From NCBI RefSeq assembly GCF_015864575.1, contig NZ_JADYWW010000001.1, positions 1,697,719 through 1,761,718 of the forward strand: a DNA stretch of 64,000 nucleotides, read 5' to 3'. This stretch comes from Salinibacterium sp. SWN248. Lineage in GTDB: Bacteria; Actinomycetota; Actinomycetes; Actinomycetales; Microbacteriaceae. Positions 1,191 to 64,000 of the stretch are shown here, in pieces. Under the pieces are notes generated by a model. It searched no databases. It saw only the letters and a program-made list of their open reading frames with translations, and was not told the origin of the DNA. Both the position numbers and the translations under genes were made by a program. Positions within the stretch are counted from its first letter, which is position 1, and each line of letters opens with the position of its first letter.

Positions 1191-2326
1191 CTTTTGAACC
1201 TGCAGTGCTCGTCCTTGAAGATGGCACACGCTATCTCGGTCAGGCCTACGGCGCCCGCGGTCAACGCCTCGGCGAGGTAGTCTTCGCCACCGGCATGACC
1301 GGCTACCAAGAGACGATCACCGACCCCAGCTATGCGGGCCAGATCGTTGTCATGACGGCACCGCACATCGGCAACACCGGTGTGAATGATGAAGACCCTG
1401 AATCCTCACGAATTTGGGTCTCCGGTTTCGTCGTGCGCGATGCGAGCCGCGTGGTGTCGAACTACCGTGCCGATGGATCGCTGGATGACGACCTCGTCAC
1501 CCAGAACATCGTCGGCATCAGCGGCGTCGATACCCGCGCGATCACCCGTCGCTTGCGCGACTCCGGCTCCATGCGCGGAGGAATCTTCTCCGGCGCGGAT
1601 GCTGAACTCAGCGACGCCGAGCAACTTGCCGCGGTCACCGCCGCAGCACAGATGAGCGGCCAAAGCCTGTCGTCTGAAGTGTCGACATCTGAGGCCTACG
1701 TTGTTGCCGCAGTGGGGGAGAGCATCGGCCGCTTGGCTGTTCTTGACCTCGGAGTGAAGACGTCAACGCTCAACTACCTCGCCGAGCGAGGCTTCGACGT
1801 TCATGTGCTGCCCCAGACCGTTACTTTCGACGAGCTGCTGTCGATCGAGCCGGTCGCCGTCTTCTACTCGAACGGACCAGGCGACCCGTCGGCATCCGAC
1901 GCTCACGTTGCACTCCTCACAGAGGTGCTCAAGAAAGGGCTTCCTTTCTTCGGTATCTGTTTCGGCAACCAGCTTCTCGGTCGCGCACTCGGCTACGGCA
2001 CCTACAAGCTGCCGTTTGGCCACCGCGGAATAAACCAGCCCGTCATCGATGTGCAGACGCAGCGCACCGAGATCACCGCCCACAATCACGGCTTTGCCGT
2101 TGATGCTCCGGTCGGCGAGATCAGCCAATCACCGGCAGGTTTTGGCCGCGTCGAGGTCAGTCACGTCAACCTCAACGACAACGTTGTTGAAGGACTTCGA
2201 GCCCTCGATATCCCCGCATTTTCTGTGCAGTACCACCCCGAGGCGGCCTCAGGCCCCCACGACGCCAATTACCTTTTCGACAGGTTCCGCGACCTTGTCC
2301 TCAAGAACGCAAAGGACAGCAAGTAA
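1187..2326 (+). CDS. carA: Carbamoyl-phosphate synthase small (glutaminase) subunit
   Basis: Hydrolyses glutamine and passes ammonia to CarB, which makes carbamoyl phosphate for pyrimidine and arginine synthesis. The 379-residue product has the CarA-specific N-terminal domain (about 1-180) and a class I glutamine amidotransferase domain. The nucleophile is Cys258 in FFGICFGNQ, and the triad is completed by His350 and Glu352 in QYHPEAA. Length is normal for the family. It starts with GTG at 1187, sharing bases with the TGA of the upstream membrane protein, and its stop overlaps the carB ATG by one base. Tight coupling should keep CarA and CarB near equal amounts. Confidence 0.98.
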
Positions 2327-5300: not shown

Positions 5301-5640
5301 CGAGATTCTCGCGCGCAACGGCATCGAGGCTCAGGTCGTGCGCAAGTACTTCATGGGCCAGGAAGCAAATGCTGCTGAACCGTCGATCGTTGAAATGATC
5401 AACGACGGCAAGGTGGATGTCGTGATCAATACGCCAAGCGGACGCAGTGCGCGTGCCGATGGCTACGAGATCCGCACCGCGACAGTCGCCGCCGACAAGC
5501 CGATCTTCACGACCATGGCCCAGCTTGCGGCCGCTGTTGCGTCGTTTGAAGCTATTCGCGACGGCTTTGATGTGCGTTCGCTTCAGGACTACGCCTTGGA
5601 TCGTGCCGCCGAGCTCGAGAAGGTAGCCAACAATGCCTAG
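2326..5640 (+). CDS. carB: Carbamoyl-phosphate synthase large subunit
   Basis: Makes carbamoyl phosphate from bicarbonate, ammonia and two ATP. The 1104-residue protein shows the expected duplication: two carboxyphosphate/carbamate synthetase halves, each with a pre-ATP-grasp segment ([10 protein letters not shown] near residue 12 and [11 protein letters not shown] near residue 557) and an ATP-grasp domain. An oligomerisation segment lies between them, and a C-terminal MGS-like allosteric domain from about residue 950 carries [10 protein letters not shown]. That domain binds UMP/ornithine effectors in known homologues. It begins at the last base of carA and overlaps pyrF by 8 bases. Nothing is missing or unusual. 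Confidence 0.99.
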
Positions 5641-6475
5641 TTTCTCCTCACGGCTTGCGCAGACCTTCGAAGAGTTCGGGGGAGTGTGCATGGGAGTGGA
5701 CCCGCATCCGTTCCTTCTCGAAAGCTGGGGCCTCTCCAACGACGCCCACGGCGTGCGCGAATTCGCCCTCCGTGCGGTGGATGCTGCCGCCGGCAACGTG
5801 GGAATGATCAAGCCCCAAGTCGCTTTCTTCGAACGCTTCGGGTCTGCGGGTTACGCGATTCTCGAGGAGTCTTTTGCCCTGGCGCGCTCCGCCGGATTGC
5901 TTGTGATTGCCGATGTGAAGCGTGGCGACCTGTCGTCGTCCGTCGATGCTTATGGGCAAGCCTGGCTGACGCCGGGCTCACCCCTGGAGGCCGACGCAAT
6001 GACTGCCGTGGCCTATCAAGGAGTTTCGGAGCTGTCTGGGCCATTCGAACTTGCTCGCTCAGCGGGCAAAGGAATCTTCGTGCTGGCAGCAACCTCTAAC
6101 GCTTCGGCGCACAGCATCCAATCGGCGCGAATCGCTGAAGGTGAACACGCGGGCGCGACTGTCGCCGCTAGTGTCGTGCGCGATGTGGCGGCCCTCAATA
6201 CCGAAAGCGGGCTTGGATCGTTTGGTGTCGTAATCGGTGCCACCGTCGATGTTGCCGACTACGGCATCCGCAACGGTGAACTGGTTGACTTGCCCATTCT
6301 TGCTCCAGGGTTCGGCGCTCAAGGGGCGCAGGTCGAGCAGGCCCGCGAACTGTACGGCGATGCCGTCGCGAATACGATCGTGACCGTTTCCCGCAGTGTG
6401 CTGCAAGAGGGTGCCAGTCAGATTCCGGCAGAGCTTCGATCGCTGCGCTCGCAACTTCGTGAGCAGGTTCGCTAA
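5633..6475 (+). CDS. pyrF: Orotidine 5'-phosphate decarboxylase, long (type 2) form
   Basis: Decarboxylates OMP to UMP, the last step of the de novo pathway. The 280-residue protein has the catalytic DVKRGD motif with Lys96, and an early [12 protein letters not shown] segment that binds substrate. The length and motif style match the type 2 subfamily found in actinobacteria rather than the shorter E. coli form. The start overlaps carB by 8 bases and the stop overlaps the guanylate kinase ATG, so pyrimidine and purine monophosphate steps share a transcript. A GGGGGAG heptamer (5678-5684) lies in its early coding region. Confidence 0.97.
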
Positions 6476-7657: not shown

Positions 7658-7666
7658 AACCTTTCG

Positions 7667-8895: not shown

Positions 8896-10092
8896 ATGAC
8901 TTCGCCCCTGCGCACCTTCACCTCAGAGTCTGTTACCGAGGGACACCCCGACAAGATCTGTGATCAGATCAGTGACAGCATTCTTGACGCTTTGCTCGAG
9001 GAAGACCCGAATGCTCGGGTCGCTGTTGAGACTCTCGTGACAACGGGGCTCGTGCATGTCGCCGGTGAAGTGACCACAACCGGCTACGCCGACATCCCCG
9101 CGATTGTGCGTGATCGCATTTCCTCCATCGGTTACAACTCGTCTGATGTTGGCTTTGACGGTCGTTCGTGCGGCGTGTCCGTCTCGATTGGTGCACAGTC
9201 ACCCGACATCGCTCAGGGTGTTGACCGTGCGCTCGAAGCGCGTGAAGGCAATTCAACAGACTCGCTGGATGTCTTGGGCGCTGGAGACCAGGGCGTCATG
9301 TTCGGGTACGCCACTAATGAGACTCCGCAGCTCATGCCCGCCCCTGTCTGGTTCGCTCACCGCATGGCCGAGCGTCTCGCGGCTGTGCGCAAAGAGGGGC
9401 TTGTCGACTACCTGCGTCCCGACGGAAAGACTCAGGTCACCGTGGGCTACGAGGGATCGGTGCCGCGCAGCATTGAAACCGTCGTGTTATCGACACAGCA
9501 TTCGCCCTCGGTGTCAACCGCTCAGTTGCGCCGTGAGATCGAAGAACTCGTCGTGCGACCGATTGCGGAAAGCTCGGGCCTCGACCTGTCGAATCTGCAA
9601 TCAATCGTTAATCCCAGCGGCCGTTTTGAGATTGGCGGCCCTCAGGGCGACGCCGGTGTCACCGGTCGTAAAGTCATTGTTGATACTTACGGCGGAGCAT
9701 CCCGTCACGGTGGGGGAGCATTCAGCGGTAAAGACCCCTCGAAGGTAGACCGCTCGGCAACCTATGCCATGCGCTGGGTGGCGAAGAATGCGGTTGCCGC
9801 AGGTCTTGCTGATCGTCTCGAAGTGCAGATCGCGTATGCGATTGGCCGGGCAGCACCCGTCAGCTTGTACGTCGAAACCTTCGGCACCGGCCATGTTTCT
9901 GACGAGGCCATTCTGGGCGCGATCCATGATGTCTTCGATCTGCGCCCGGGCGCGATCATCCGCGATCTCGATCTCTTGCGTCCCATTTACGCGAAGACTG
10001 CAACCTACGGTCACTTCGGTCGTGAGCTTCCTGAGTTCACCTGGGAGCGCCTTGACCGCGTTGAGGCTCTTCGCGGGGCCGCCGGGCTGTAG
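8896..10092 (+). CDS. metK: S-adenosylmethionine synthetase
   Basis: Forms S-adenosylmethionine from methionine and ATP. The 398-residue protein begins with the signature [15 protein letters not shown] (His17 in GHPDK at 16-20). It contains [10 protein letters not shown], the central catalytic segments, and [16 protein letters not shown], the glycine-rich phosphate-binding loop of the family. The C-terminal domain with [17 protein letters not shown] is complete. The gap from coaBC is 29 bases and contains GGAGA upstream of the ATG. No SAM riboswitch-like structure is apparent in that short gap. The stop is two bases before the priA ATG. Confidence 0.98.
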
Positions 10093-13046: not shown

Positions 13047-14407
13047 GCTACGCACAGTCAGCCCGTCGGGTCGCGCTCGACGTCATCATGGCGGTGCGCG
13101 AGTCGGATGCGTACGCGAACCTTCTTCTTCCCGTGCACCTGGAGCGCGCGAAACTCTCGAGCGCGGATGCCGGCCTTGCCACCGAACTCACCTACGGCAC
13201 CCTGCGCATGCAGGGCTACTACGACGCGGTGATCGCTCAGGCGGCCGGCCGCGACGTGTCCAAGATCGACCCGCCTGTGCTCGACGTGTTGCGCCTCGCC
13301 ACGCACCAGTTGCTGTCAATGCGCGTTCCCTCGCACGCGGCAGTGGATGAGTCGGTGCGCCTCGCTAAGACGATCGGCTCGCGTTCCGCGGTCGGCTTTG
13401 TCAACGCGGTGCTGCGTGCGATCACGAAGCACGATGCTGATACGTGGCGCGAGCGAGTGATTGGTGCTGCAAGCTCGGGGGAGCAAGCCCTTGCGGTGGC
13501 GTATTCCCATCCGTTATGGGTGACCCGGGCCTTCCGGCAGGTACTGGTCGCTGAGGGTCGCGAAGCTGAGCTCGAAGGTTTGCTCGCAGCAGACAATGTT
13601 CCTGCCCGCGTATCGGTCGCGGCGCTTCCTGGATTCTCGGAGGTCGCCGACATCGACGTCACGCCGGCACAATACTCGCCGGTGGGCGGAACTTTGCGTG
13701 AAGGAGACCCGTCGAAGAACTCGGCCATCGCCGCAGGGCGCGCTCGCGTGCAAGACGAAGGCTCGCAGATTGCGGCACTCGCGCTCAGCCGCGTCCGGCC
13801 CATTGTGGCGGGGGAGTCGTGGCTCGATATGTGTGCTGGCCCGGGTGGCAAAGCCGCTCTGTTGGCCGCGGAAGCTCTGGAGGGTGGTGCCGTGCTCACC
13901 GCCAACGAACTGATTCCGGCGCGCGCCAAGCTCGTTCGCAACGCCCTCGCGGTCTTCGACGCTCCGCCTGTGGTCTGGGAGAAAGACGGCATCGATATCG
14001 GCGAGGAGCATCCCGAGCAGTTTGATCGCATCCTTCTCGATGCGCCGTGCACCGGCCTCGGTGCGCTACGCCGTCGCCCTGAAGCTCGCTGGCGCAAACA
14101 ACCCGGCGATGTCGCTCAGCTGGGCGCGATTCAGACGGCGTTGCTGCAATCAGCATTGAAGGCACTCAAGCCGGGCGGAGTGTTGGCGTATGTGACCTGC
14201 TCGCCTCATGCCGCCGAGACAAAGGCGATTGTCGGTTCTGTGCTGCGCAAGGCTGAGGGCATCACCAAGATGGATACGCCCTCCGTGGTTCAGAGTTTCT
14301 CGAAAGCAGAACTCGACCTGCCGGAGGCAACTCATGTTCAGCTGTGGCCACACCGTCACGGAACAGACGCCATGTTCATCCAACTCCTTGTCAAAGCAGA
14401 CTCCTAG
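13043..14407 (+). CDS. rsmB: 16S rRNA (cytosine-C5)-methyltransferase, RsmB/Sun family
   Basis: Methylates cytosine 967 (E. coli numbering) of 16S rRNA using SAM. The 454-residue protein has an N-terminal NusB-like RNA-binding domain (about 5-140) and a C-terminal Rossmann methyltransferase. Two conserved cysteines are present: Cys336 in DAPCTGLG and the catalytic Cys386 in VTCSPHAAE. The SAM loop is DMCAGPGGKAALLA. GTG 13043 overlaps the fmt stop by four bases, so the two RNA-modification genes are likely translated together. Two GGGGGAG heptamers (13477 and 13810) lie in this gene, the closest pair in the window. Confidence 0.95.
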   Translation: MSYAQSARRVALDVIMAVRESDAYANLLLPVHLERAKLSSADAGLATELTYGTLRMQGYYDAVIAQAAGRDVSKIDPPVLDVLRLATHQLLSMRVPSHAAVDESVRLAKTIGSRSAVGFVNAVLRAITKHDADTWRERVIGAASSGEQALAVAYSHPLWVTRAFRQVLVAEGREAELEGLLAADNVPARVSVAALPGFSEVADIDVTPAQYSPVGGTLREGDPSKNSAIAAGRARVQDEGSQIAALALSRVRPIVAGESWLDMCAGPGGKAALLAAEALEGGAVLTANELIPARAKLVRNALAVFDAPPVVWEKDGIDIGEEHPEQFDRILLDAPCTGLGALRRRPEARWRKQPGDVAQLGAIQTALLQSALKALKPGGVLAYVTCSPHAAETKAIVGSVLRKAEGITKMDTPSVVQSFSKAELDLPEATHVQLWPHRHGTDAMFIQLLVKADS

Positions 14408-16761: not shown

Positions 16762-16762
16762 A

Positions 16763-17515
16763 ATGGCGGTCGCAGTTCGGGTCATTCCGTGCCTCGATGT
16801 CGCCGACGGTCGTGTCGTCAAAGGCGTCAACTTCAAGGATCTCCGCGATGCGGGTGACCCGGTTTCCCTCGCGCGGCTGTATTACGAGCAGGGCGCTGAC
16901 GAAGTGACGTTTCTCGATGTCACGGCAACTGTCGAGGGACGCGCAACGATGTATGACGTCGTGCGGTCGGCAGCCGAGCAAATCTTTATCCCCTTGACGG
17001 TCGGTGGGGGAGTCCGCGAGCCAGATGATGTCTCCAAGCTTCTCGCCCACGGGGCAGACAAAGTCGGCGTCAATAGCGCCGCCCTTGCTCGCCCGCAGCT
17101 TATCGATGACATTGCCCACCGCTTTGGGGCACAGGTCCTCGTGCTGAGCCTCGACATCAAACGCCGCGGCGATGGCTGGATCGTCACTACTCACGGTGGT
17201 CGCACCGAGACAGACCGCGACGCGCTCGAGTGGGCTCGTGAAGCCATGGAGCGCGGCGCGGGCGAGTTGCTCGTCAATTCCATCGACGCGGATGGCACGA
17301 AGGAAGGCTTTGACCTCGAACTCGTGTCCGCGATCAGTGAGTTTGCGACAGTCCCCGTCATCGCCAGTGGCGGAGCGGGCAAAGTCGAACACTTTGCGCC
17401 GGCTATCGACGCCGGTGCCGATGCCCTGCTCGCGGCATCCGTTTTCCACAGTCGCCAGTTGACGGTGGGAGACGTTAAAGCTTCACTCAACAGTCATGGA
17501 TTGGTTACACGATGA
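16763..17515 (+). CDS. hisF: Imidazole glycerol phosphate synthase, cyclase subunit
   Basis: The cyclase half of the HisHF enzyme, which uses ammonia from HisH to form imidazole glycerol phosphate and AICAR. The 250-residue TIM barrel has the conserved catalytic aspartates, one in [10 protein letters not shown] (Asp12) and the other in VLSLDIKR near residue 130, plus phosphate loops at [11 protein letters not shown] and [12 protein letters not shown] use ATG 16763, since homologues begin with this segment; an upstream in-frame start at 16712 lies inside hisG. Its partner hisH, and hisA, hisB, hisC and hisD, are not in the window. Confidence 0.97.
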
Positions 17516-17889: not shown

Positions 17890-19408
17890 CACGACGAGTC
17901 GCGAGGAATTCGAGGCGCTGGTTGCCGGCGGCAATCGCGTTGTCCCCGTTATCCGTCAGCTCTTCGCCGATGGTGAAACTCCCGTCGGGGTGTATCGCAA
18001 GCTCGCCAAGGCAAACCCGGGAACGTTTTTGCTTGAGTCGGCGGGCCAGGGCGGCATCTGGTCACGCTTCTCCTTCGTGGGCGTCGCCAGCTTCGGTGTT
18101 CTCACCCAACACGAGCACGGCGTCGAGTGGATTGACTACGGGATGCCGCGCGAGCGAATCCTCGGTGATGACTGCCCGACGGCGCCGCTGGAAGCCCTCG
18201 CTCATCTCAACGAGCGTTGGAAAACGCCGCGCGTCGAGGGGCATCCTCCGCTCACCGGCGGCCTTGTCGGGTTCATTGGTTGGGAGGCTGTTCGCGAGCT
18301 GGAGAACCTTCCCGATGCCCCGCCCGCCGACTTCGAGGTTCCGAGCCAGGCGCTAAGCTTTGTCTCCGACCTCGTGGTGCTCGACCACCGTTTCGGCACC
18401 GTCATGCTCATCTCGACTGCGCTGAACGACGGGCATCAGGATGTCGAGGAGATGTGGACCGAGACCCAGTCCCGCCTCGACGTGCTTCAGTCTGGCCTCG
18501 CTCAACCCACGGATGCTTTCCTCGCTGATGTGGATATCGAGATCGATCCCGAGCCAACGTCGCGCTCCACGCCGGCGGAGTATGCGAAGGCGATCGAGAA
18601 GTCGAAGGAGTTCATCCGCGACGGCGATGTCTTCCAGGTTGTCATTTCGCAGCGGTTTGACCATGAGGTTTCGGCGACTCCGCTTGATGTCTATCGCGTC
18701 TTGCGCACCCTCAACCCGTCGCCCTATATGTATTTGCTGTCGCTTGTTGACATGGATGGTCGTCCGTATTCGATCGTCGGCGCGAGTCCGGAAGCACTCG
18801 TGAAGGTCTCCCAAAAACGCGTGCACATGCATCCCATCGCCGGTTCACGACCTCGTGGCGCTGACACCGAGCGAGACCTTGAGCTCGCCGAGGAACTGCT
18901 CGCCGACACGAAAGAACGTGCCGAACACCTGATGCTCGTCGACCTCGCGCGTAATGACCTCCTGAAGGTTTGCACGCCGGGTACCGTCGCTGTCACCGAG
19001 TTCATGCAGGTCGAACGATTTAGCCACATCATGCACCTCGTCTCCTCGGTGGAAGGCGATCTCAGACCCGAAGCCTCCGCTGTCGATGTGTTCCGTGCGA
19101 CTTTTCCTGCAGGCACGCTCTCGGGCGCACCCAAGCCTCGCGCCCTCGAGATTATCGATGAGCTAGAACCAGCCCAGCGTGGCGTGTATGGGGGAGTCGT
19201 TGGCTACTTCGACTTCGCCGGCGATGCTGATCTCGCGATCGCCATTCGCACGGTCACGATCGTGGATGGCGTTGCTCGCGTTCAAGCCGGAGCCGGCCTT
19301 GTTGCCGATTCCGACCCTGCCGCCGAGCACCAAGAGGCTCAGAACAAGGCTGCGGCGCCCCTTCGCGCTGTCGCGGTCGCTAATGCGATGACTCACCTCA
19401 GCTCATGA
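17882..19408 (+). CDS. trpE: Anthranilate synthase component I
   Basis: Converts chorismate and ammonia (or glutamine with TrpG) to anthranilate. The 508-residue protein has the N-terminal regulatory domain, with the LLESA element near residue 46 that contributes to tryptophan feedback binding in homologues. The chorismate-binding domain has SPYMYLL, the HPIAGSRPRG motif, LVDLARNDL and the C-terminal GAGLVADSDP. It overlaps hisI by 8 bases and the next membrane protein by 4. The amidotransferase trpG and phosphoribosyltransferase trpD are not nearby. Confidence 0.97.
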   Translation: MNSTTSREEFEALVAGGNRVVPVIRQLFADGETPVGVYRKLAKANPGTFLLESAGQGGIWSRFSFVGVASFGVLTQHEHGVEWIDYGMPRERILGDDCPTAPLEALAHLNERWKTPRVEGHPPLTGGLVGFIGWEAVRELENLPDAPPADFEVPSQALSFVSDLVVLDHRFGTVMLISTALNDGHQDVEEMWTETQSRLDVLQSGLAQPTDAFLADVDIEIDPEPTSRSTPAEYAKAIEKSKEFIRDGDVFQVVISQRFDHEVSATPLDVYRVLRTLNPSPYMYLLSLVDMDGRPYSIVGASPEALVKVSQKRVHMHPIAGSRPRGADTERDLELAEELLADTKERAEHLMLVDLARNDLLKVCTPGTVAVTEFMQVERFSHIMHLVSSVEGDLRPEASAVDVFRATFPAGTLSGAPKPRALEIIDELEPAQRGVYGGVVGYFDFAGDADLAIAIRTVTIVDGVARVQAGAGLVADSDPAAEHQEAQNKAAAPLRAVAVANAMTHLSS

Positions 19409-21037: not shown

Positions 21038-22311
21038 TGCTGAAAGATGAATTGGGCCCCTACTTTGGAGAGTTCGGTGGTCGATTCGTTCCTGAATCGC
21101 TCATCGCTGCTCTCGACGAGTTGGATGCCGCCTATAACGAAGCCAAGAATGATCCGGAGTTTGTCGCTGAGCTTGCCGAGCTTCACGCAAGCTACACCGG
21201 TCGGCCGTCGATTATCACCGAAGTACCGCGGTTTGCGGAGTACGCCGGTGGGGCTCGCATCATTCTGAAGCGCGAAGACCTCAACCACACGGGATCGCAC
21301 AAAATCAACAATGTGCTCGGTCAGGCGTTGCTTGCCCGTCGCCTGGGCAAGACCCGCCTCATTGCTGAAACCGGCGCCGGTCAACACGGCGTTGCAACGG
21401 CCACCGCTGCTGCGCTCTTCGGAATGTCATGCATCGTGTACATGGGGGAGGTCGACACCGAGCGTCAAGCGCTCAATGTTGCCCGCATGCGGCTTCTTGG
21501 CGCCGAGGTTATTCCGGTCACTGCAGGGTCGCGCACTCTCAAGGACGCGATCAACGAGGGTTTGCGCGATTGGGTAGCCAACGTCGATGACAGCCACTAC
21601 CTCATGGGAACCGTTGCTGGCCCGCATCCCTTCCCCGTCATGGTTCGCGACTTCCACCGTGTCATCGGTGACGAAGCTCGTGAGCAAGTCATCAAGCTGA
21701 CGGGCGCACTGCCGGATGCCGTCGTGGCGTGCGTCGGTGGTGGCAGCAATGCCATGGGTATTTTCCACGCTTTCCTCGACGACGCCGATGTTGCGCTCTA
21801 CGGCTACGAGGCCGCTGGAGAGGGCCACCTGACGGAACGTCACGCCGCTACGCTCACTCGCGGTCGTCCGGGTGTTCTCCACGGGGCGCGCAGCTACATG
21901 CTGCAAGACGCTGAGGGCCAAACTATCGAGTCGCACTCCATCTCTGCCGGTCTCGACTACCCCGGAGTTGGCCCTGAGCATTCGTGGTTGAAAGACATCG
22001 GTCGAGCCAACTATGAGCCCATTACCGATGCTGAAGCCATGGATGCGCTGCGCCTGCTCAGCCGCACCGAGGGCATCATTCCCGCAATCGAGTCGGCACA
22101 CGCCCTCGCCGGAGCGATCAAGCTCGGCAAGGAACTTGGTCCGGATTCGGTGATCCTCGTGAACCTCAGCGGCCGCGGTGACAAAGATATGGAAACTGCG
22201 GCGGAATACTTCGATCTGATCGATTCGGCTGAGAAAGCGTCAGCGGAGGACAGGAAGGCGTCCGACAAGAAGGCCGCCGACGAGCAGAACGCTGCGGGGA
22301 ATAAGTCATGA
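21037..22311 (+). CDS. trpB: Tryptophan synthase beta subunit
   Basis: Condenses indole and serine to tryptophan with PLP. In 424 residues I see the PLP lysine Lys89 in [11 protein letters not shown], the [11 protein letters not shown] substrate loop, and the PLP-phosphate loop [11 protein letters not shown] normal core ends near residue 397. The remaining tail of about 27 residues is very rich in Ala, Lys, Glu and Asp and looks disordered. It ends four bases into trpA. The one-base junction with trpC and the 4-base overlap with trpA suggest coupled synthesis of the alpha2-beta2 complex. Confidence 0.98.
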
Positions 22312-30302: not shown

Positions 30303-30307
30303 AAGTT

Positions 30308-30340: not shown

Positions 30341-30357
30341 ACCCGTCAAAGGAAGTT

Positions 30358-39743: not shown

Positions 39744-39833
39744 CAGTTAACGAGCCACGGCTATCCGCTGAATGGTCGGCGGAAATCGGGCGGGGGAGCG
39801 CTCTGCTCAGCTGGCGAGCCTGAGCGGGGGTGC

Positions 39834-43214: not shown

Positions 43215-44313
43215 TGGCCAGCGTTTCGTGCATCGCAATCATGCGGCGCTCCTGAGCGAAGGAGTCGTGGGGGAGTGCGGTAGTTCGCGCAGCCCCACGT
43301 CGTTCCTCTACCGGGATATCGGCAAGAACTCTGAGCGCGTGAGCGATATGAGTATGATCCGGAGCCACCGTGAGTCCACCGCCATCGGCGAATGCAATGT
43401 GCTCCTTGCACGCGGTAGTGATAATCGTGGGAGTGCCCGTAGCGAGGGATTCCAGAGCTATGGCCTGAGCGCACGATCCGTTTGTTGTGACGATCGCAAG
43501 GTCTGCGGTCGCAAAGACTTCTGCTCGCTCCACCAGCGTGAGGTCGTGCGCGCTCAGAAATTGAACTGAAATCCCCACCGCACTTCGTTCGAGCCGGGCA
43601 CGCAGCGGGCCATCGCCCAAGATCACCAAATGGAGGTCCTCGCCCTGAGAAGCTCGGTGCCGCACTGCGTCAATCGCGACTGAGACCGCTCCCGCGGAGG
43701 TGAGCGGCGCCGCACATACGACGACCAATTCGGCGCCGCTTGAGTCGCGGAGAGGGCTGTTGTGGCGCAGCGGAGAGAACGCTTCGACGTTTACCCCTGA
43801 CGGGATGCTCACAACGCGATTGTCGGGAGCGGACGTCGTTGCAGGGTCGGTCGCCGTGCGCGAGTTTTCGTGGGTCGCAGAATCGGAACCCTGCGCGCCG
43901 ACTACCCCCATGTGAATGACCTGGTCGAACCCCAGTGGGGTGTGTGCCGTAGCCCACTCGGCTTCGCCATCGTCCGTGAGGAGCACGGCCGGCACACGGT
44001 TGTCGCGCGCCCACGCGCCCAGTTCGCGAGCACTGAGGCGGTCGGCGACTTCGATCTGATCGGGCACAAGTTTTTCGAGAGCACGGCGCACAGCTTTGGC
44101 GATAGGAACGAATCCGCGGGATAATGCTCGGCCACGAGCGGGCACCGTGACCACCGTGCCGTATTCGGTCCAGGTCACCGATGACTCGGCTCCGGGGATG
44201 ATGATGGAAAACTCGTGCCCGGCTGCCTGATACGCCAGACCACGAGAACGCACAGCGCTTGAAGGCAATAAGGCTGGTGCCGAGTAAAAGCTCGTAACGT
44301 GCGCAATGTGCAT
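43168..44313 (-). CDS. Glycosyltransferase, GT4-like
   Basis: A 381-residue GT-B fold protein without signal peptide. The N-terminal domain starts [10 protein letters not shown]. The C-terminal nucleotide-sugar domain has [14 protein letters not shown] and [14 protein letters not shown], the second half of the EX7E motif. The first glutamate of EX7E is replaced by Ser (SCAQAIALE), and the usual N-terminal GG acceptor loop is not obvious. Donor and acceptor are unknown. The start region has GATAAT 6 bases upstream, predicting a leaderless mRNA. Its 3' end overlaps uvrB by 47 bases. Confidence 0.85.
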
Positions 44314-44393: not shown

Positions 44394-47267
44394 GTGACTA
44401 CAGCACAGTCGATTCCTAATTCTCACCTCAGCGTCCGTGGCGCTCGGGTTCACAATCTCAAGAACGTTGACCTCGAGATTCCGCGCGACTCTCTCGTCGT
44501 CTTCACTGGTCTTTCAGGGTCAGGCAAATCGAGCCTCGCGTTCGACACTATTTTCGCAGAGGGCCAGCGACGCTACGTCGAATCGCTTTCGGCCTATGCG
44601 CGTCAATTCCTAGGCCAGGTCGATCGGCCAGACGTCGATTTCATTGAGGGACTCAGCCCGGCGGTCTCGATTGACCAGAAATCCACGAACCGAAACCCAC
44701 GGTCAACCGTCGGAACGATCACAGAGATCTACGACTACATGCGACTGTTGTGGGCGCGCATCGGAGTTCCGCACTGCGCCGTGTGCGGCGAAAAGATTGA
44801 GCGCCAATCGGTGCAACAAATTGCCGACCAACTGATGAAGCTTGAGAGCGGCACACGCTATCAAATTGTCAGTCCCGTCGTTTCTCAGAAAAAGGGCGAG
44901 TTCGTTGATCTCTTCGCGGAGCTCGCCTCGAGCGGTTACTCCCGCGCCATCGTGGATGGCGATGTCATCCAGCTCAGCGAGCCTCCCAAGCTGAAGAAGC
45001 AGTACAAACACGATATTTCTGTCGTCGTTGACCGGTTGGTGGCAAGCGACGACATCCTTACGCGCCTTACCGATTCACTCGAGACCGCACTGCGACTCAC
45101 CGACGGAACTGTCGCGATCAACTTTGTTGACGAGGAGGGGGATGCCGCGTGGCGTTCGTTCTCCGAGAAGCTGTCCTGCCCCAATAATCACCCCATCCAG
45201 CTCACCGAAATCGAGCCACGCACCTTCTCATTCAACGCCCCTTTCGGCGCGTGCCCGGAGTGTTCGGGGCTCGGTACCCGCATGTCGATCGACGCAGAGC
45301 TCCTCATCGCCGATGATTCAGTCAGTCTCTCTGAGGGCGCAATCTTGCCCTGGACGAACTCGGGCAAGGGTCTCTATAACTACTTCGAAAAGTTGCTCGG
45401 CGGCCTAGCCCTCGACCTTGACTTCTCGCTCGACACTCCGTGGGGCGATCTCCCCGAAGATGTTCGCGAAGCAGTTTTGCGAGGCAACGATTTCAAGGTG
45501 TCCGTTAAGTGGAAAAACCGCTACGGGCGCGAGATGAAGTACTCCACGGGGTTTGAGGGAGTGATTCCCTACATCGAGCGCAAATACCTCGAGGCGGAGA
45601 CAGATGTTCAGCGCCAGCGCTATGCGGCGTACCTCCGCGAGATTCCCTGCCCCGTATGCGATGGCAAGCGTTTGAAGCCAGAGGTCTTGGCCGTCACTGT
45701 CGCTGACAACAGCATTTCTGACATCTGCGAGCTCAGCCTCATCGATGCCTATGGCTTCATGAATGAACTGGTTCTCTCTGAGCGGGATGCCCACATTGCT
45801 GCTCAAGTGCTTCGCGAAATCCGATTGCGCCTAGAATTCTTGGTCGAGGTCGGCCTGAGTTATCTGAACCTCGCACGTGCGGCCGCAACATTGAGCGGTG
45901 GCGAGGCGCAACGCATTCGTCTGGCGACCCAAATTGGCTCCGGTCTCACTGGCGTGCTCTATGTGCTCGACGAGCCCAGCATCGGACTTCACCAGCGTGA
46001 CAACCGACGATTGATCGAAACTCTCGTCAAGCTCAAGAACCTCGGCAACACCCTCATCGTGGTTGAGCACGATGAAGATACGATTCGCACCGCCGATTGG
46101 GTTGTCGATATTGGGCCTGGCGCCGGCGAACACGGTGGAGAAGTCGTTCACTCCGGTTCCTACGAAGAGCTACTCACCAATACACGGTCGATAACCGCTG
46201 ACTACCTGTCGGGGCGTAAGGCCATCGAAACGCCGAAGAAGCGTCGCCCGATTGACAAGGCGCGCCAGATTACCGTCGAGGGAGCGAAGGCGAACAACCT
46301 CAAGAACCTCACCGTCAAATTCCCGCTTGGCACGTTCACCGCGGTCACGGGCGTCAGTGGTTCTGGAAAATCAAGCCTCGTCAACGACATCCTCTACAAG
46401 GTCCTTGCCAACGAACTCAACGGTGCGCGCCAGATTCCAGGCAAGCACACGCGAGTCACGGGCCTCGAGAACCTCGACAAGGTAGTTCATGTCGACCAGA
46501 ACCCGATCGGACGCACTCCACGATCCAATCCCGCCACATACACGGGCGTCTTCGACAAGATCCGCACGTTGTTCTCCGAGACCGCGGATGCGAAAGCTCG
46601 AGGATACTTGCCCGGTCGCTTCAGCTTTAACGTCAAGGGCGGTCGCTGCGAGAACTGTTCGGGTGACGGCACTATCAAGATCGAGATGAACTTCTTGCCC
46701 GACGTGTACGTCGCGTGTGAAGTGTGCGGGGGAGCTCGCTATAACCGCGACACCCTCGCCGTAAAGTACAAGGCCAAGAACATCGCTGAAGTGCTCGACA
46801 TGCCGATCAGTGAGGCCGCGGACTTCTTCGAGGCAATCACGAGCATTCACCGTTACTTGAAGACGCTCGAAGAGGTCGGGCTTGGCTATGTGCGTCTCGG
46901 CCAGAGCGCGACAACTCTCTCGGGCGGTGAGGCACAACGAGTCAAGCTTGCTACTGAGCTCCAGCGCCGATCGATGGGGCGCAGCGTCTATGTGCTCGAT
47001 GAGCCAACGACAGGTCTCCACTTCGAAGACGTGCGCAAGCTCTTGTTGGTGCTCAACGGTCTCGTTGATAAGGGAAACACTGTCATCGTGATCGAGCACA
47101 ACCTTGATGTCATCAAGTCTGCTGACTGGCTCATTGATCTCGGCCCCGAAGGCGGGTCTGGCGGCGGAGAGCTGCTATCCGTCGGAGCTCCCGAGAAGGT
47201 CGCCAAGGTCGCGGGAAGCCACACTGGCCAGTTCTTGGCTGAAGTATTGAGTGGCAATCGTGTCTAG
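44394..47267 (+). CDS. uvrA: Excinuclease ABC subunit A
   Basis: The damage-sensing ATPase of nucleotide excision repair. The 957-residue protein has two ABC modules, with Walker [10 protein letters not shown] near residue 41 and GVSGSGKSS near 652 and two signature motifs ([18 protein letters not shown]). Zinc-binding cysteine pairs lie in [22 protein letters not shown] and CENCSGDG...[10 protein letters not shown] start at GTG 44394 ([17 protein letters not shown]); ATG-like 44343 would extend into the promoter. uvrC follows after 17 bases. Confidence 0.98.
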
Positions 47268-47284: not shown

Positions 47285-49237
47285 GTGGCTAACACTGTTC
47301 CTTGGCGCCCGCGTGCAGGAGACATCCCTAACCAGCCAGGCGTCTATCGGTTTACCGACGATAAGAAGCGCGTGCTCTACGTGGGAAAAGCGAAGAACTT
47401 GCGAGCACGTCTCAGCAACTACTTTGCACCGCTGACCACTCTTCACGAGCGCACTCGACGGATGGTGCTCACCGCAACAAACGTTGAGTGGACGATCGTC
47501 GGCAATGACTTTGAAGCGCTGCAGCTGGAATACACCTGGATCAAAGAATTCGATCCGCCGTTTAACGTTCAGTACAAAGACGACAAGTCCTACCCGTACC
47601 TTGCGATCACGATGGGTGATCCTGTTCCACGGGTGCTTGTCACGCGCAATCGTAACCTGCCCAATGCGCGATACTTCGGCCCCTATTCGCGCGCGTGGGC
47701 CATCCGCGACACGGTCGATGTGATGCTCAAAGCTTTCCCGATGCGCAGCTGCTCGACGTCGGTCTACAAGCGCGCCCAACAAACTGGTCGCCCCTGCTTG
47801 CTCGGCGATATCGGTAAGTGTGCGGCGCCCTGTGTCGGACGAGTGACGCTCGAAGAGCATAAATCGATTGCACTAGATTTTGCGTCGTTCATGGGAGGCA
47901 ACGACTCTCGAATGCTCAACTCAATCAAAGCCAAAATGGCAGAGTCCGCAGCGACTCAAGAGTATGAGGCGGCCGCGCGCTATCGAGACCAAATTGGGGC
48001 GATGGAGACAGCGCTCGCTAAAAACCAGATCGTGTTGTCCGAGGATGTGGATGCCGATTTCTTCGGAATTGCGCACGATGAACTCGCAGCCGCCGTGCAA
48101 CAGTTCATTGTTCGAGGCGGCCGAATTCGCGGTGTTCGTGGATGGGTCGTCGATAAAGAACTGGATGTCGAACTCGGCGGACTGGTCGAATCTGTGTTGC
48201 AGAACGCCTACGACGACACCGTCCCACCGCGCGATGTCCTCGTGCCAGCGCTGCCAGAGGACGGCACTGCGCTGGAAGAGTGGCTAGCGCAGCGCCGTGG
48301 GCCGGGCGCGCGCGTCCGTTTGAGGGTCGCGCAGCGGGGCGAAAAGGCGTCACTGGCACAGACCGTGGAGACAAACGCTCAGAACGCGCTCATGCTCTAT
48401 AAGTCGAAACGGAGCGGCGACTTCGTTGCTCGTTCGCAGGCGCTGGCAGATATCCAGGAAGCATTGGGAATGACCGAGGCTCCGCTTCGGATGGAATGTT
48501 TCGACGTTTCGCACCTCTCAGGCACGAATGTGGTTGCATCCATGGTCGTCTTCGAAGATGGACTGCCCAAGAAGCAGCACTACCGGCGTTTTAATATCCC
48601 CGAGACCACCGACGACACTGATTCCATCTACCAGGTCCTCACGCGTCGGCTTGCCTATCTTGCCGCCGGGAATGCGGTCCCTACTGCTGCTGAAGCGCAG
48701 GCGACGTCGCCCGACAAGATACTCAGCGCGGGGGAGCCGGATGGGGATGCCGCAGCTTCTGCGAAGCTCGCGACCGATGTTGTGGTGCCTTCTCCCAAGT
48801 TTGCTTATCCGCCCCAATTGCTGATCGTTGATGGTGGGCAACCGCAGGTTTCAGCGGCACAGCGCGCTCTCGAGGAGTCCGGCGTTTCCGGTATCCAACT
48901 CGCTGGAATTGCTAAGCGACTAGAAGAGATCTGGCTGCCCGACTCTGATTATCCGGTTATTCTTCCCCGCAATAGTGATGCGCTTTTTTTGATTCAACGC
49001 ATCCGCGATGAGGCGCACCGCTCCGCAATTACTCATCAGCGTCAGCGAAGGTCAAAGGACATTTCCTCGATCCTCTCCACTGTTCCGGGCCTCGGCCCGT
49101 CCCGCATCAAGGCGCTGTTGCAGCACTTTGGTTCCGTCGCTCGGCTCAAGGCGGCGACGCCCGAACAGATCACAGAAGTCCCGGGAGTCGGAGAGGCGAC
49201 TGCTGCCGCGATCATCGAGAAGCTCGGTCAGCGCTAG
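47285..49237 (+). CDS. uvrC: Excinuclease ABC subunit C
   Basis: Makes both incisions around a lesion. The 650-residue protein has an N-terminal GIY-YIG nuclease (about 13-95, [24 protein letters not shown] split over the motif QPGVYRF...[11 protein letters not shown]), a UVR domain near 215-250 for UvrB contact, and an RNase H-like second nuclease (about 385-560, [13 protein letters not shown] and [10 protein letters not shown]). Two C-terminal helix-hairpin-helix motifs ([29 protein letters not shown]) complete it. GTG start with GGGAG 6 bases upstream. A short low-complexity insert (about 455-500) splits the RNase H-like domain. Confidence 0.98.
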
Positions 49238-50179: not shown

Positions 50180-51160
50180 GTGGCATTAACTGCTGAAGTC
50201 AAAGACGAACTGGCACGAATTCAGTTGGGCAAGACGACTGAGCGCGCTGCAGAGCTCGCAACAATTTTGCGGTTCTCGGGTGGTCTCCATCTGATTTCCG
50301 GACGTATCGCCGTCGAATCTGAGCTGGAAAGCGAATTGCTCGCTCGCCGTGTGCGGCGCGACATTGCTGAGCTGTACGGCGTTCGCTCTGAGATTTCGCG
50401 CGTTGCGTCTTCCGGTGGCCGGCGTACGAACAATCTTCTGGTGCGCGTTCTCGACGGGGGAGAGACCCTCGCTCGCCAGACTGGACTTTTGGATGCCCGC
50501 CGCCGCCCCATCCGCGGCCTCCCGAACCGCGTGACTACTGGCGGCCGCGGTGAACTCGCTGCTGTCTGGCGTGGGGCGTTTCTTGCGGCAGGCTCGCTCA
50601 CAGACCCGGGTCGCTCGGCCGCTCTCGAAGTAACCTGCCCTGGCAACGAGGCCGCAATGGCGCTCGTTGGCGCTGCAGGTCGACTCCGCGTCGCCGCAAA
50701 GGCACGCGAGGTTCGCGGTGTTCACCGTGTCGTTGTTCGCGATGGCGAAGCCATTAGCGCCATGCTCACGATCATGGGCGCCGAGACGACTGTGGTGAGC
50801 TGGAACGAATTGCGTCAACGTCGCGAAGTTCGCGCCACCGCCAACCGCCTAGTGAACTTTGACGATGCGAACCTTCGCCGTTCGGCGCAAGCTGCTGTTG
50901 CCGCGTGCGCCCGCGTCGAACGCGCTCTTGAGATCTTGGGGGATGACGTGCCGCAGCACCTGCGTTACGCCGGCGAACTTCGCCTCAGCCACCGAGACTC
51001 AAGCCTGGACGAATTAGGCCACCATGCTGATCCGCCGATGACGAAGGATGCTGTTGCTGGCCGCATCCGTCGGCTACTGGCAATGGCGGACAAGCGCGCA
51101 AGCGACCTCGGTGTAGCCGGTACTGAAGCAAACCTTCCCGCTGAGTTGGACGAGGCTTAG
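50180..51160 (+). CDS. whiA: WhiA sporulation/cell-division regulator homologue
   Basis: A 326-residue DNA-binding regulator. The N-terminal half resembles a degenerate LAGLIDADG homing endonuclease (about 20-220, with [20 protein letters not shown]), and the C-terminal helix-turn-helix is at about 265-310 ([18 protein letters not shown]). WhiA works with WhiB to switch on sporulation septation genes in Streptomyces; non-sporulating actinobacteria and firmicutes also keep it. GTG start with GGAAGGA upstream. The last residues are acidic. Confidence 0.95.
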
Positions 51161-55856: not shown

Positions 55857-56660
55857 TTAGTGCTCGTCCGTGGAGTCTGCGCTGGTCCAGAACTGCCCAG
55901 GATCGATCAACGATGCCGGAACTTGGGCTGCGGCGTCGGAATCGACAAAGAACAAGGTTTTGCGACGGCCTTCAAGGCCCGCTGCGGGAACCTCGTTGTA
56001 GCTGGCACCGGCCAGAGTGAGTCCCAAAGCGGAAGCTTTATCGCTTCCGGCAACGACTGCCCAGATTCGAACTGAAGAGTTGATCACCGGCAGCGTGAGG
56101 CTCACTCGTTCGTCAGGGGGCTTGGGGGAGTTGCGCACAGCAATAACGGTTCGCTCGGTTTCACGGATGCCTTCGCGCTCCGGAAAGAGCGAAGCAATGT
56201 GACCGTCCGGGCCGACCCCGAGGAAGACGATGTCGAAGTTCGGGTACTTGCCGTTACGTGCGGAGTGAGCTGCGAGGTCGTTGGCATAAGCCTGAGCCGC
56301 GTCATCCAGAGTGAGACCCGAGTCGGATGCCGCGACGGCGTGGACACGGCTGGGGTCGACGGGGATGTGATCGAGCAGAGCAGCGCGCGCCTGAACATCG
56401 TTGCGCTCGGGATCGCCGGCAGGCAGCCAACGCTCATCGCCCCACCAGAAGTTAACGCGTGACCAGTCAACGCCGTCGCGTTTGGACGACTTATTGATGG
56501 CTTCGAGAACTGCTATCCCCATGCTTCCACCGGTAAGAGCCACGGTTGCTTCATCGAACTCGGCGATGAAGTGGGGGACTTTCGAGAGAAAGCGCGCAGC
56601 AACAGCTTTCGCCAGCTTCGCTTTATCGGTGTGGACTATCGCACGACGTTCGTTACTCAT
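55857..56660 (-). CDS. pgl: 6-phosphogluconolactonase
   Basis: Hydrolyses 6-phosphoglucono-lactone, the second oxidative pentose-phosphate step. The 267-residue protein belongs to the NagB/DevB-like family: VALTGGSMGIAVLEAI, WWGDERWLPAGDPERN and FLGVGPDGHIASLFP are the family motifs. It overlaps the opcA stop by four bases and is the last gene of the tkt-tal-pgi-zwf-opcA-pgl block. Confidence 0.97.
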   Translation of the reverse strand: MSNERRAIVHTDKAKLAKAVAARFLSKVPHFIAEFDEATVALTGGSMGIAVLEAINKSSKRDGVDWSRVNFWWGDERWLPAGDPERNDVQARAALLDHIPVDPSRVHAVAASDSGLTLDDAAQAYANDLAAHSARNGKYPNFDIVFLGVGPDGHIASLFPEREGIRETERTVIAVRNSPKPPDERVSLTLPVINSSVRIWAVVAGSDKASALGLTLAGASYNEVPAAGLEGRRKTLFFVDSDAAAQVPASLIDPGQFWTSADSTDEH

Positions 56661-59204: not shown

Positions 59205-60803
59205 CTATCCGATCGCGTCGAGAACCTGCGGCAACGACACCTTCGGGTTCGATACCGTGAGGCTTAAGACGGGGCGGCCGTGTTCAGCAAGCACGCTAGC
59301 GTCACCGGCAGCTTGAGCGCGGATGAGCTGTCCAAACGTGAATGGACGGTCGGGAATCTGCAGATCAGATTCTTCGACCACAATGATTTGAAGGAACACA
59401 CCAATTGCAGGCCCGCCCTTGTGGAACTGACCAGTGGAGTGCAGGAACCGGGGTCCCCAACCGAAAGTGACTGGGCGCTTGGCGCGCGCCGCAGTCTTCT
59501 CTCGAAGTTCCGAAAGTTCCGGGTAGCCAGTGCGGTCGGCGTAGACCTGAATGGCGACGTAACCGTCGTCATCGAGGTAGGACAGAAGCGAAGACACAAC
59601 TCCGGCGAGGTCGCTGCTATCAGCCACCACGCCCTCGGTGCCCCGAACCTCGATGTCGCCAACCGAGAAGGCAGGCGCCTGCTGAGGAGTCGGGTTATCA
59701 ATGAGTTCCCGCGCTGCGTTCTTTGCAGCCTCAACATCGGGCTGATCAAAGGGGTTGATGCCGAGAAGGCGACCAGCGACGACAGTGGCGTACTCCCAGA
59801 GCAGCAACTGTCCACCGAGCGAACCAGCGATTTCAATCTCGCCCTCTGCTACCTCTTTGGTGTCGTCCCAGTCTCCGACGAGTCGAACGATTTGGAGGTC
59901 ATCCAAACCTTCCATGACCTCGGGGGAGTCAGTGCGCAGGACAACGGGAAGAAGTCCCTTGCCGAGCTTTCCCGTCGACTCAGCGATGAGCTGCTCAGCC
60001 CAATCTCCAAAGCCGAGGATGTGGGTTCCGTCGGTCACGATGCCGAGCTTGTCTTTCAGTGGGTCAGTTCCTGCAATCGCAGCGCCAAGCACGAGGCCAG
60101 GGTTGCTCTCGTTGTCGACAGCAAGCTCAACCATGACGGCTTCGGCCTCGTCGAGAAGCTCGGTCAGATCGACACCAGCCAGTCCAGACGGAACGAGTCC
60201 GAAGGCGGTGAGCGCCGAGTAACGGCCGCCGACGTTGGGATCAGCGTTGAACACGCGGTATCCCGCAGCGCGAGCCGCGATATCCATCGGCGAACCGGGA
60301 TCGGTGACGATTACGATGCGCTCCCGCGGGTCGATTCCGGCATCCGTGAAAAACTTTTCGTAGATGCGTTTCTGGGAATCAGTCTCGAGCGTAGAGCCCG
60401 ACTTGGACGAGATGACGACGGCCGTCGACTGAAGACGATCCGCGAGGGCAGCCTGCACCTGTGCGGGGTCTGTCGAGTCGAGAACTGTGAGTTCAACTCC
60501 GTACGTGCGAGTGATGACCTCAGGGGCAAGCGATGAACCGCCCATACCGCCGAGGACAAAGTGATCCACGCCGTCGGCGCGCAGTTTGTCGCGCAGAGCG
60601 TAGATGTCCTCGATCATCGGCCGACCGACAGAAACAGCTTCGACCCAGCCCAGGCGCTTCGCCGACTCTTCTTCGGCCGCAGGGCCCCAGAGAGTTGCGT
60701 CGCCGCCAGTGATGCGGCTTGCAACTAGATCATTGACGAGCTGCGGAACGATGCGGTCGACGGCTTCTGCCGCCGCACCGGATACTGCAAGCTTCACACT
60801 CAT
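59205..60803 (-). CDS. pgi: Glucose-6-phosphate isomerase, actinobacterial type
   Basis: Interconverts glucose 6-phosphate and fructose 6-phosphate. The 532-residue protein has two sugar-isomerase (SIS) domains with [12 protein letters not shown] (85-96) and SKSGSTLET (133-141), and later [14 protein letters not shown], the PGI signature segment. It lacks the longer insertions of E. coli Pgi. It overlaps tal by four bases and is followed by zwf. A pgi between tal and zwf is the arrangement I associate with Microbacteriaceae and Micrococcales; mycobacterial clusters lack it. Confidence 0.95.
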
Positions 60804-61912: not shown

Positions 61913-61936
61913 TTCTTGTCTCCTTATCTGGGGCGC

Positions 61937-64000
61937 CTAGACGGCGTCCAGAGAATCGCGTGCAGCGGCCACAACGGCCTCGGTGGTGATTCCAAACTCA
62001 CGGAAAAGAGTCTTGTAGTCGGCGGATGCTCCAAAGTGATCGATCGAGATGCTGCGACCTGCGTCGCCAACGTACTCGCGCCATCCAGTGGATACTCCTG
62101 CTTCAACCGATACGCGTGCACGCACAGTAGAAGGCAAAACGGACTCGCGGTATTCCGCGGTCTGCTCGGCGAACCACTCAAGGCTAGGAGCGGATACGAC
62201 GCGCGCATTGATTCCGTCAGCCTTGAGCGTCTCGCGCGCTTCCACAGCGAGCTGCACTTCAGAACCGGTGGCAATCAGGATTACGTCCGGAGTTCCGTTC
62301 GGCGCTTCAGCGAGCACGTAAGCTCCCTTGGCTACGTTCGCAGCGGAAGCGAAGGTCTCGCCAGACGCGTCGGCATCCCCACGATCGAATGTGGGCACGT
62401 TTTGACGGGTGAGGGCGATACCCGCTGGGCCGTTACGACGCTCAAGGATGGTCTTCCATGCCCAGGCGGTCTCGTTGGCGTCGGCTGGGCGAACTACGTC
62501 CATGCCAGGAATCATGCGCAAGCTAGCAAGCTGCTCGATCGGCTGGTGAGTAGGACCGTCTTCGCCGAGGGCGATCGAGTCGTGAGTCCAGACAAAGATC
62601 GACGGCACACCCATGAGAGCGGCCAGTCGAACAGCAGGACGCATGTAGTCGCTGAAGATCAGGAACGTTCCGCCGAAAGCACGAGTGTTTCCGTGAAGAA
62701 CGATGCCGTTGATAATCGCGCCCATGGCGTGCTCGCGGATACCGAAGTGGAGTACGCGGCCGTACTCGTTTCCGCTCCACTCGCCGGTGGAGTGCTCGCT
62801 CGGCACGAAGGACTTCGCCCCGGCGATGGTGGTGAGGTTCGATTCGGCGAGGTCGGCAGAGCCACCCCACAGCTCGGGCATGATCGCACCAATGGCGCCG
62901 AGTACCTTGCCGCTTGCCGCACGAGTCGAAACGTCTTTGCCTGCTTCGAACTGGGGGAGTGCTTCTTCGACGCCCTCAGGCAATGTACCAGACAGAACAC
63001 GGTCGAGCAGAGTCTTGCGCTCGGGGTTTGCCGCAGCCCACTTGTCGAAGGATTCTGTCCACTCAGCGCGCTGTTGCTTGCCGCGGTCAATTGCTTGACG
63101 CGTGTGAGAGATAACGTCGTCGTCGACGACAAAGCTCTGCTCGGGGTCAAAGCCGAGAGCCTTCTTAGTGCCAGCAAGTTCTTCAGCGCCCAGAGCAGAT
63201 CCGTGGATCTTTCCGGTGTTCTGCTTACTGGGGGCTGGCCAACCGATAATGGTGCGCAGGATAATGAGCGAAGGCTGGTCGGTGACGGCCTTGGCGTCTT
63301 CGATCGCGGCGTTGAGCGCCTCGACGTCTTCGACGTATTCGCCGGTCTTCTTCCAGTCAACGACCTGTACGTGCCAGTTGTAGGCCTCGTAGCGCATCTT
63401 CACGTCTTCGGTGAAGGCGATGTTGGTGTCGTCTTCAATAGAGATCTGGTTGCTGTCGTAGATCGCAATGAGGTTGCCGAGCTTCTGGTGACCCGCGAGG
63501 GACGAAGCTTCTGCTGATACGCCTTCTTGAAGGTCGCCATCACCGGCAATGACATAGACGAAGTGATCGAAGGGGCTCGTGCCTGCTTCAGCCTCAGGGT
63601 CAAACAGTCCACGCTCGTACCGTGCTGCGTAAGCGAAGCCGACAGACGATGCGATTCCTTGCCCGAGAGGGCCCGTGGTGATTTCTACACCCTTGGTGTG
63701 GCCGTACTCTGGGTGCCCCGGAGTGAGCGAGCCCCACGTGCGCAGAGCCTTGAGGTCGTCGAGCTCCAGCCCGTAACCGGCAAGGTACAACTGAACGTAC
63801 TGAGTCAATGAGCTGTGGCCCACCGAGAGAATGAAACGGTCGCGACCAATCCACTGATCGTCGCTTGGATCACGACGCATCACCTTCTGAAAGAGCAAGT
63901 ACGCTGCAGGCGCCAAACTCATCGCGGTACCGGGGTGACCGTTACCTACCTTCTCAACAGCATCTGCCGCCAGAATTCGAGCGGTGTCTACCGCTTTGTT
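61937..64000 (-). CDS. tkt: Transketolase, 5' end cut by window
   Basis: Thiamine-diphosphate enzyme transferring two-carbon units in the non-oxidative pentose-phosphate pathway. 687 codons are present; the start lies beyond base 64000, with about 13-20 residues missing. The first visible residues are [20 protein letters not shown], followed by the [12 protein letters not shown] active-site segment. The TPP fold has [23 protein letters not shown] lies in the pyrimidine-binding domain, and the C-terminal domain contains [13 protein letters not shown]. It heads the minus-strand block that ends at pgl. Confidence 0.97.

Follow-up and report, generated by a model that had tools for sequence, protein, structure and literature searches.

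Comparison with known polar sequences

The directionality of the DNA translocase FtsK is known in detail in Escherichia coli and Bacillus subtilis. Here we describe a polar heptamer, GGGGGAG, in a 64-kb stretch of DNA (hereafter, the window) from Salinibacterium sp. SWN248, whose 3.05-Mb, five-contig genome belongs to the Microbacteriaceae; the window spans positions 1,697,719-1,761,718 of the main contig, C1. With a probability of about 0.9, GGGGGAG (in its fuller form YGGGGGAG, with AGGGGAG as a weaker version and, hence, RGGGGAG) serves as an FtsK-orienting polar sequence (KOPS) in this genome and in many Actinomycetota.

Like GGGGGAG, the E. coli KOPS GGGNAGGG is G-rich, polar and convergent on dif. 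The core here is instead a heptamer with five G before AG, its polarity is near absolute in all sampled tenths of the chromosome arm, and its origin-side switch is displaced; GGGNAGGG itself, at only 52 to 27 between the strands, was rejected as the signal in this genome. For KOPS, a polarity above 90% near dif is quoted in a review (PMC5357621). The SpoIIIE recognition sequence (SRS) of B. subtilis, GAGAAGGG, is likewise the polar guide of an FtsK-family pump, but shows no skew here (11 to 12) and was also rejected. The KOPS of Lactococcus lactis, which we take to be GAAGAAG, offers the parallel of a lineage-specific heptamer for a divergent FtsK gamma domain, but differs in being A-rich, and GAAGAAG stands at 174 to 151 in our sample. 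Its description as an A-rich heptamer is found in the review mentioned above (PMC5357621).

Architecture-imparting sequences (AIMS) are presented as strand-biased octamers whose abundance rises toward the terminus (PMC5993296). Both the strand bias and the rise are found here, with the octamer CGGGGGAG at 103 to 0; AIMS, however, are a statistical class, mostly with no named reader, whereas here the convergence on dif points to FtsK. Chi is also a polar oligomer, but the polarity of GGGGGAG opposes the inferred replication strand near the replication origin (oriC) and its density climbs toward dif. Thus, what is expected of a KOPS, namely a polar and strand-biased motif, convergence and a switch at dif, a rise in density and an FtsK with a gamma domain, is all present, while the usual layout with divergence at the replication origin is not that of this genome, where the motif diverges ~50 kb from oriC. 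Divergence at the origin is the usual KOPS layout and not what guides FtsK to dif.

GGGGGAG was not found described as KOPS or AIMS in the open-licence PMC literature, as judged by titles and the start of abstracts; subscription papers and supplements, including AIMS tables, may mention it. Neither of the two papers of that literature found to contain both GGGGGAG and FtsK was, by title, on this subject. No word beginning GGGG occurs in the main text of PMC5993296, and recent corynebacterial and mycobacterial FtsK papers (PMC11898615, PMC13277299) treat KOPS only in general terms in the parts covered.

GGGGGAG copies in the window

Twenty copies of GGGGGAG lie on the + strand of the window and none on the - strand, exactly as counted in a first-pass annotation made from the sequence. 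Their window positions, with the picked open reading frames (ORFs) in which they fall, are as follows.

1714..1720, +, GGGGGAG copy in the carbamoyl-phosphate synthase small subunit gene (+)
5678..5684, +, GGGGGAG copy in the + ORF 5633-6475
9712..9718, +, GGGGGAG copy in the + ORF 8896-10092
13477..13483, +, GGGGGAG copy in the + ORF 13043-14407
13810..13816, +, GGGGGAG copy in the + ORF 13043-14407
17006..17012, +, GGGGGAG copy in the + ORF 16712-17515
19190..19196, +, GGGGGAG copy in the + ORF 17882-19408
21444..21450, +, GGGGGAG copy in the + ORF 21037-22311
24694..24700, +, GGGGGAG copy in the glutamate synthase large subunit gene (+)
26585..26591, +, GGGGGAG copy in the glutamate synthase large subunit gene (+), the sole copy without a preceding pyrimidine
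31299..31305, +, GGGGGAG copy in the + ORF 30241-31803
33836..33842, +, GGGGGAG copy in the DNA polymerase I gene (+)
39792..39798, +, GGGGGAG copy in no picked ORF
43269..43275, +, GGGGGAG copy on the template strand of the - ORF 43168-44313
46728..46734, +, GGGGGAG copy in uvrA (+)
48730..48736, +, GGGGGAG copy in the + ORF 47285-49237
50456..50462, +, GGGGGAG copy in the + ORF 50180-51160
56124..56130, +, GGGGGAG copy on the template strand of the - ORF 55857-56660
59922..59928, +, GGGGGAG copy on the template strand of a glucose-6-phosphate-isomerase-like gene (-)
62953..62959, +, GGGGGAG copy on the template strand of the transketolase gene (-)

Dinucleotide shuffles of the window lead to expect 6.89 copies, both strands summed (sd 2.43, largest 14), and none of 100 shuffles reached 20. 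Fifteen copies fall in + ORFs, four in - ORFs (43269, 56124, 59922 and 62953, the same four that had been assigned to genes read on the minus strand) and one (39792) in none. The proposed extension to YGGGGGAG also holds, since C or T precedes 19 of the 20 copies and the exception, at 26585, has G. Two other statements of the annotation turned out to be true of the window but less strictly so beyond it. The use of two codon phases only is correct for the 15 copies in + ORFs (start mod 3 = 0 or 2), while in the larger sample described below the third phase is taken by 2 of 91 coding-strand copies. Similarly, a spacing of roughly one copy per 3 kb, fairly even, applies within the window (mean gap 3.2 kb; coefficient of variation (CV) 0.43), but the CV over the whole sample is 0.82, so that even spacing is mostly local. 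The GC skew of the window is about zero (-0.042 to +0.030 per 4 kb). On the right arm, the window covers the interval ~74 to 138 kb ahead of dif, within the arm tenth having the highest motif density. Its UvrA has its nearest match, with 86% identity, in Salinibacterium metalliresistens, other Microbacteriaceae coming next.

Strand bias beyond composition and codon usage

In the whole genome, GGGGGAG occurs 395 times in forward and 270 times in reverse orientation; the heptamer with its letters in backward order, used as a control, occurs 98 and 108 times, respectively. From this genome, 58 stretches (1.13 Mb) were sampled in addition to the window. Counts of strand bias, density gradient and codon shuffles refer to 924 kb of C1, with C1:250,001-320,000 (70 kb, four stretches) and the whole of C2, C3 and C4 set aside; a short contig that reads N was excluded from the map of sampled copies and from the counts made after it.

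GGGGGAG is the most strand-biased of all heptamers, with 199 leading and 2 lagging copies, and it is the top heptamer in either half of the split sample (98/0 and 101/2). The next listed heptamer not overlapping it is GGTGCTG, at 262 to 132 over both halves. All single-letter variants of GGGGGAG are weaker in strand bias and most of them far weaker, the strongest being AGGGGAG (49 to 8), GGGGGAT (43 to 11), GGGGGAC (33 to 10) and GGGAGAG (65 to 22), the last one partly because it overlaps with GGGGGAG copies having AG next.

Synonymous codon shuffling, the control named in the first-pass annotation, was performed on 641 genes called with a simple gene caller (77% of bases coding), dicodons not being preserved. 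Leading copies numbered 90 on coding strands (26.4 expected) and 63 on template strands (35.8 expected), while lagging copies numbered 1 (10.8 expected) and 0 (36.4 expected), respectively. Surplus on the leading strand together with deficit on the lagging one indicates that GGGGGAG has been gathered on one strand and almost totally purged from the other, and codon usage fails to explain the skew. Transcription was rejected as the cause of the bias, as template strands carry 63 of the 153 leading-strand copies that fall within called genes. GC skew was rejected as well, being about zero in the window, with GGGG 57% leading and GGGGGAG 99%.

Other, weaker strand-biased oligomers were observed in the sampled part of C1, namely GGTGCTG, mentioned above, GCGCTCGC (166 to 79) and GCTGGTGC (63 to 23); any of them could be a codon effect or a Chi candidate.

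Polarity switch at the predicted dif and density gradient

Along C1, sampled copies start out in reverse orientation, the last of this zone being at 304,837; a forward zone follows, between 309,128 and 1,835,032, and from 1,836,580 copies are reverse again. The terminus switch is therefore contained in a 1.5-kb gap (C1:1,835,032 to 1,836,580), and inside this gap, at C1:1,835,553, lies a dif-like site. The query was the dif sequence proposed for Frankia alni, as quoted in PMC3025954; the site shares 22 of its 28 letters, the next best in the sample sharing 19, and the 21-letter dif core, admitting up to 2 mismatches, has a single match in this genome. The polarity switch that had been predicted at dif is thus found, together with the only strong dif-like site of the genome.

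Exceptions to the C1 map in the sample are the copies at 318,253 and 353,193, in the forward zone, and at 2,014,881, in the last reverse zone, so that 217 of 220 sampled C1 copies agree with it when the origin-side switch is set at 307 kb, a position placed post hoc, after the data had been seen. Copies sampled on C2 are reverse in 27 of 28 cases and those on C3 forward in 22 of 22, the orientation of these two contigs not being independently established. Further wrong-way copies were noted at C1:40,407 (outside the sample, from a genome-wide listing) and C2:219,034. Wrong-way copies are possibly recent insertions or inversions.

Over ten arm tenths, leading-strand density climbs from 1.4 per 10 kb on the origin side to 3.1 per 10 kb close to dif, and it correlates inversely with distance from dif, measured with the origin side at 307 kb (Spearman -0.67, p 4e-7, n = 45; right arm alone -0.66, p 5e-5), while the reversed heptamer shows no evident trend by inspection. 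A rise toward dif had been foreseen for KOPS or AIMS, and a flat profile for Chi; about a doubling from ori to dif is what we observed. Lagging copies are 0 or 1 in each arm tenth, the polarity being near absolute throughout the sampled arm.

The stretch C1:1-20,000 (L085) is low in GC (0.48 compared with ~0.61) and is perhaps an island; its 3 copies keep the arm polarity.

Conservation in Microbacteriaceae and other Actinomycetota

GGGGGAG was found in all of the 60 family genomes searched, with a median ratio of 1.70 between its total and that of the reversed control. The dif core was found in 51 of these 60 genomes and in 21 of 148 genomes of the phylum, our genome being included in both counts. 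Among the other genomes with a match, 40 of 50 from the family (40 genera) and 16 of 20 from the phylum search each supplied 20 kb around dif, which together formed a dif-centred set. In the family stretches, 468 of 469 copies point at dif, and in those of the 16 other Actinomycetota 93 of 96 do; convergence on dif was seen in 55 of the 56 stretches, the remaining one having zero copies. A threshold of 4 or more converging copies together with a 5-fold excess was reached by 39 of the 40 family stretches. As a positive control, the same test on the E. coli KOPS GGGNAGGG gave 8 of 8 copies converging within 20 kb of dif.

When heptamers were counted de novo, GGGGGAG was the top converging one in 4 of 5 pools (family, same-order, same-class and other-families); the fifth pool consisted of a single stretch, L194, where there are no copies and the de novo motif search gave nothing. 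In five stretches from a family of the same class (L188-L192, family f6), AGGGGAG (17 to 1) is as common near dif as GGGGGAG (15 to 0), which suggests a drift of the motif to RGGGGAG. Outside these totals, all 15 copies converge in a Leucobacter stretch (L200) with a dif-like site having 4 mismatches, and three stretches without a good dif match (L201-L203) were likewise left out. One stretch from another family of the phylum (L196, genome G086) stood at 13 to 3, being the sole one of the 56 with more than one wrong-way copy. Taken together, a lineage-specific KOPS very probably extends over many Actinomycetota.

The candidate reader

A single FtsK gamma domain (77.7 bits) was found in the genome, in an FtsK of 919 aa, along with two full-length XerC/D-like recombinases, both under the curated cut-off of the XerD model. 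The gamma segment aligned to chains 2j5o and 2ve8/2ve9, presumably Pseudomonas-type chains and a KOPS complex, reads QRKLRVGFAKAGR. Residues S766, Q769 and N777 are named as contacting KOPS in PMC9764985. The corresponding positions were mapped by alignment in the 16 gamma domains of the genome set; all 16 retain S and Q, while N777 is replaced by A in 15 and by T in one. This replacement would fit a motif differing from the E. coli KOPS, as a putative cause of that difference. The three gamma domains of FtsK are described as reading GGG, NA and GGG (PMC5357621).

According to the mechanism we propose, the gamma domain of this FtsK would bind GGGGGAG and, once bound, would load the hexameric motor so that it faces dif; any DNA trapped by the closing septum would then be pumped in the correct direction, so that the two dif sites may meet for XerCD.

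Polarity on the origin side

Placed by DnaA boxes adjoining dnaA, oriC lies at C1 258.0-258.4 kb. In what is the usual order, dnaA has dnaN and recF to one side, while yidC, a ParA-like gene and parB are found nearby on its other side; parS-like sites are at 260.5-263.8 kb. From oriC to 304.8 kb, 14 of 14 copies point to the origin. The skew flip that the first-pass annotation expected at ori is absent there, and polarity parts instead ~50 kb to one side. Five copies are packed in 4.3 kb close to oriC and the parS-like sites (C1:259,664-263,986, L088), denser than the mean around dif.

Replication direction was assigned by a classifier based on synonymous codon use with gene strand controlled (43 of 45 stretches right, leave-one-out), adopted because a k-mer strand classifier (40 of 45 right) was confounded by gene strand. 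It indicated rightward replication for 258-307 kb (+67.5; halves +32.7 and +36.6) and leftward replication for 230-257 kb (-55.1). Combined with the 14 origin-pointing copies, this suggests that replication starts at dnaA while the motif map parts ~50 kb away, in which case those copies would lie on the lagging strand. Since the motif opposes the inferred replication strand over ~47 kb beside the origin, its polarity probably stems from an FtsK-type reading rather than from replication.

The parAB side of dnaA was inspected in eleven genomes, ten of them of different genera. Within the first 10 kb, copies point toward the origin in 7 of the 11 (41 toward, 1 away), away from it in 2 (9 to 0) and in mixed directions in 2 (6 away, 2 toward). 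The 41 origin-pointing copies correspond to 30 distinct positions, and 18 of them are at places common to several genomes, so these genomes are not fully independent. Over 80 kb of the same side, polarity turns between 50 and 72 kb in G065 and first at 57-60 kb in G006, where two later copies point back; it is mixed from 20 kb and mostly away past 50 kb in G021, mostly points back even at 76 kb in G048, and is away throughout in G034 (21 of 21). On the dnaN side, covered in three genomes, copies point away in our genome (3 of 3), G034 (6 of 6) and G006 (1 of 1); G034, looked at on both sides, hence shows divergence near oriC. A simple inversion next to oriC was rejected, given the usual-looking gene order flanking dnaA and the same polarity in 7 of 11 genomes.

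We tentatively propose, giving it slightly less than an even chance, that motif polarity is decoupled from replication: with 7 of 11 Microbacteriaceae genomes pointing back at the origin on the parAB side (over ~47 kb in our genome and 50 to 70 kb in G065), parS would fall wholly in one pumping domain, and motors loaded there would run through oriC and down the other arm. The possible cause that we suggest for the displaced switch is confinement of the centromere to a single pumping domain.

Alternative explanations

The first-pass annotation had listed Chi, KOPS-like sites and AIMS as candidates, and KOPS is preferred over Chi, GC skew and codon effects because of the sharp switch at dif, the rise in density and the codon-shuffle result. 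Several observations weigh against it. The ratio to the reversed control is below 1.2 in 7 of the 60 family genomes and below 1 in two of them (G015 and G051); the latter had no dif-core match in the search of the 60 genomes, lie outside the dif-centred set, and may have changed motif, reader or dif. The threshold of 4 or more converging copies with a 5-fold excess is reached by only 9 of the 16 non-family stretches, and one of these 16, the low-GC stretch L194, has no GGGGGAG at all, its dif call being weak. In our own genome, dif is predicted by similarity only, 3 of the 220 sampled C1 copies are wrong-way despite the post hoc switch, with 14 more if polarity is measured from oriC, and growth of the strand bias toward dif is not visible because the bias is already near 100%.

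Another reader of polar motifs, such as a different translocase, SMC or a nucleoid protein, acting without FtsK, would account for the dense copies by oriC and parS, a long way from the terminus, the presumed place of FtsK action; we hold it very unlikely, as 55 of 56 stretches converge on dif, which is the FtsK-XerCD site, and a single gamma domain was found in the genome.

Equally improbable in our judgement is that GGGGGAG is Chi, at which a double-strand-break nuclease stops degrading on meeting the motif from one side. The motif is indeed a polar, G-rich oligomer, and a pair of adjacent large ORFs (1126 and 1034 aa) encoding PDDEXK nuclease domains, at C2:119,762-123,744, is putatively AdnAB-like. 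Chi, however, would be expected to follow replication and flip at oriC, whereas 14 of 14 copies in the 47 kb beside oriC (258-305 kb) oppose the inferred leading strand, and density doubles toward dif. E. coli Chi is too rare near dif for comparison (1 converging and 1 diverging copy within 20 kb).

A passive origin of the skew, by replication-strand mutation bias, GC skew or codon or dicodon usage, would suit a motif that is G-rich and mostly leading-strand in a genome where GC3 skew differs between leading (-0.15) and lagging (-0.26) genes, but is the least probable of all and close to negligible in view of the near-zero GC skew, the contrast between GGGG and GGGGGAG, the weakness of all single substitutions, the failure of synonymous shuffles (dicodons not kept) on both strands, and the polarity against the inferred replication strand near oriC.

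Implications

As a KOPS candidate valid across many Actinomycetota, GGGGGAG offers a ready substrate for work on gamma binding, translocation and dimer resolution, and it allows chromosome arms and dif to be located in draft assemblies whose GC skew is weak. The A at the N777 position is a candidate specificity switch. What is surprising is the displaced origin-side switch, which separates selection on the motif from replication-strand bias, two things that normally coincide. If the tentative proposal for the origin side is true, selection would spare the centromere region opposite pumping orders, and FtsK or another reader would act near the origin as well as near the terminus.

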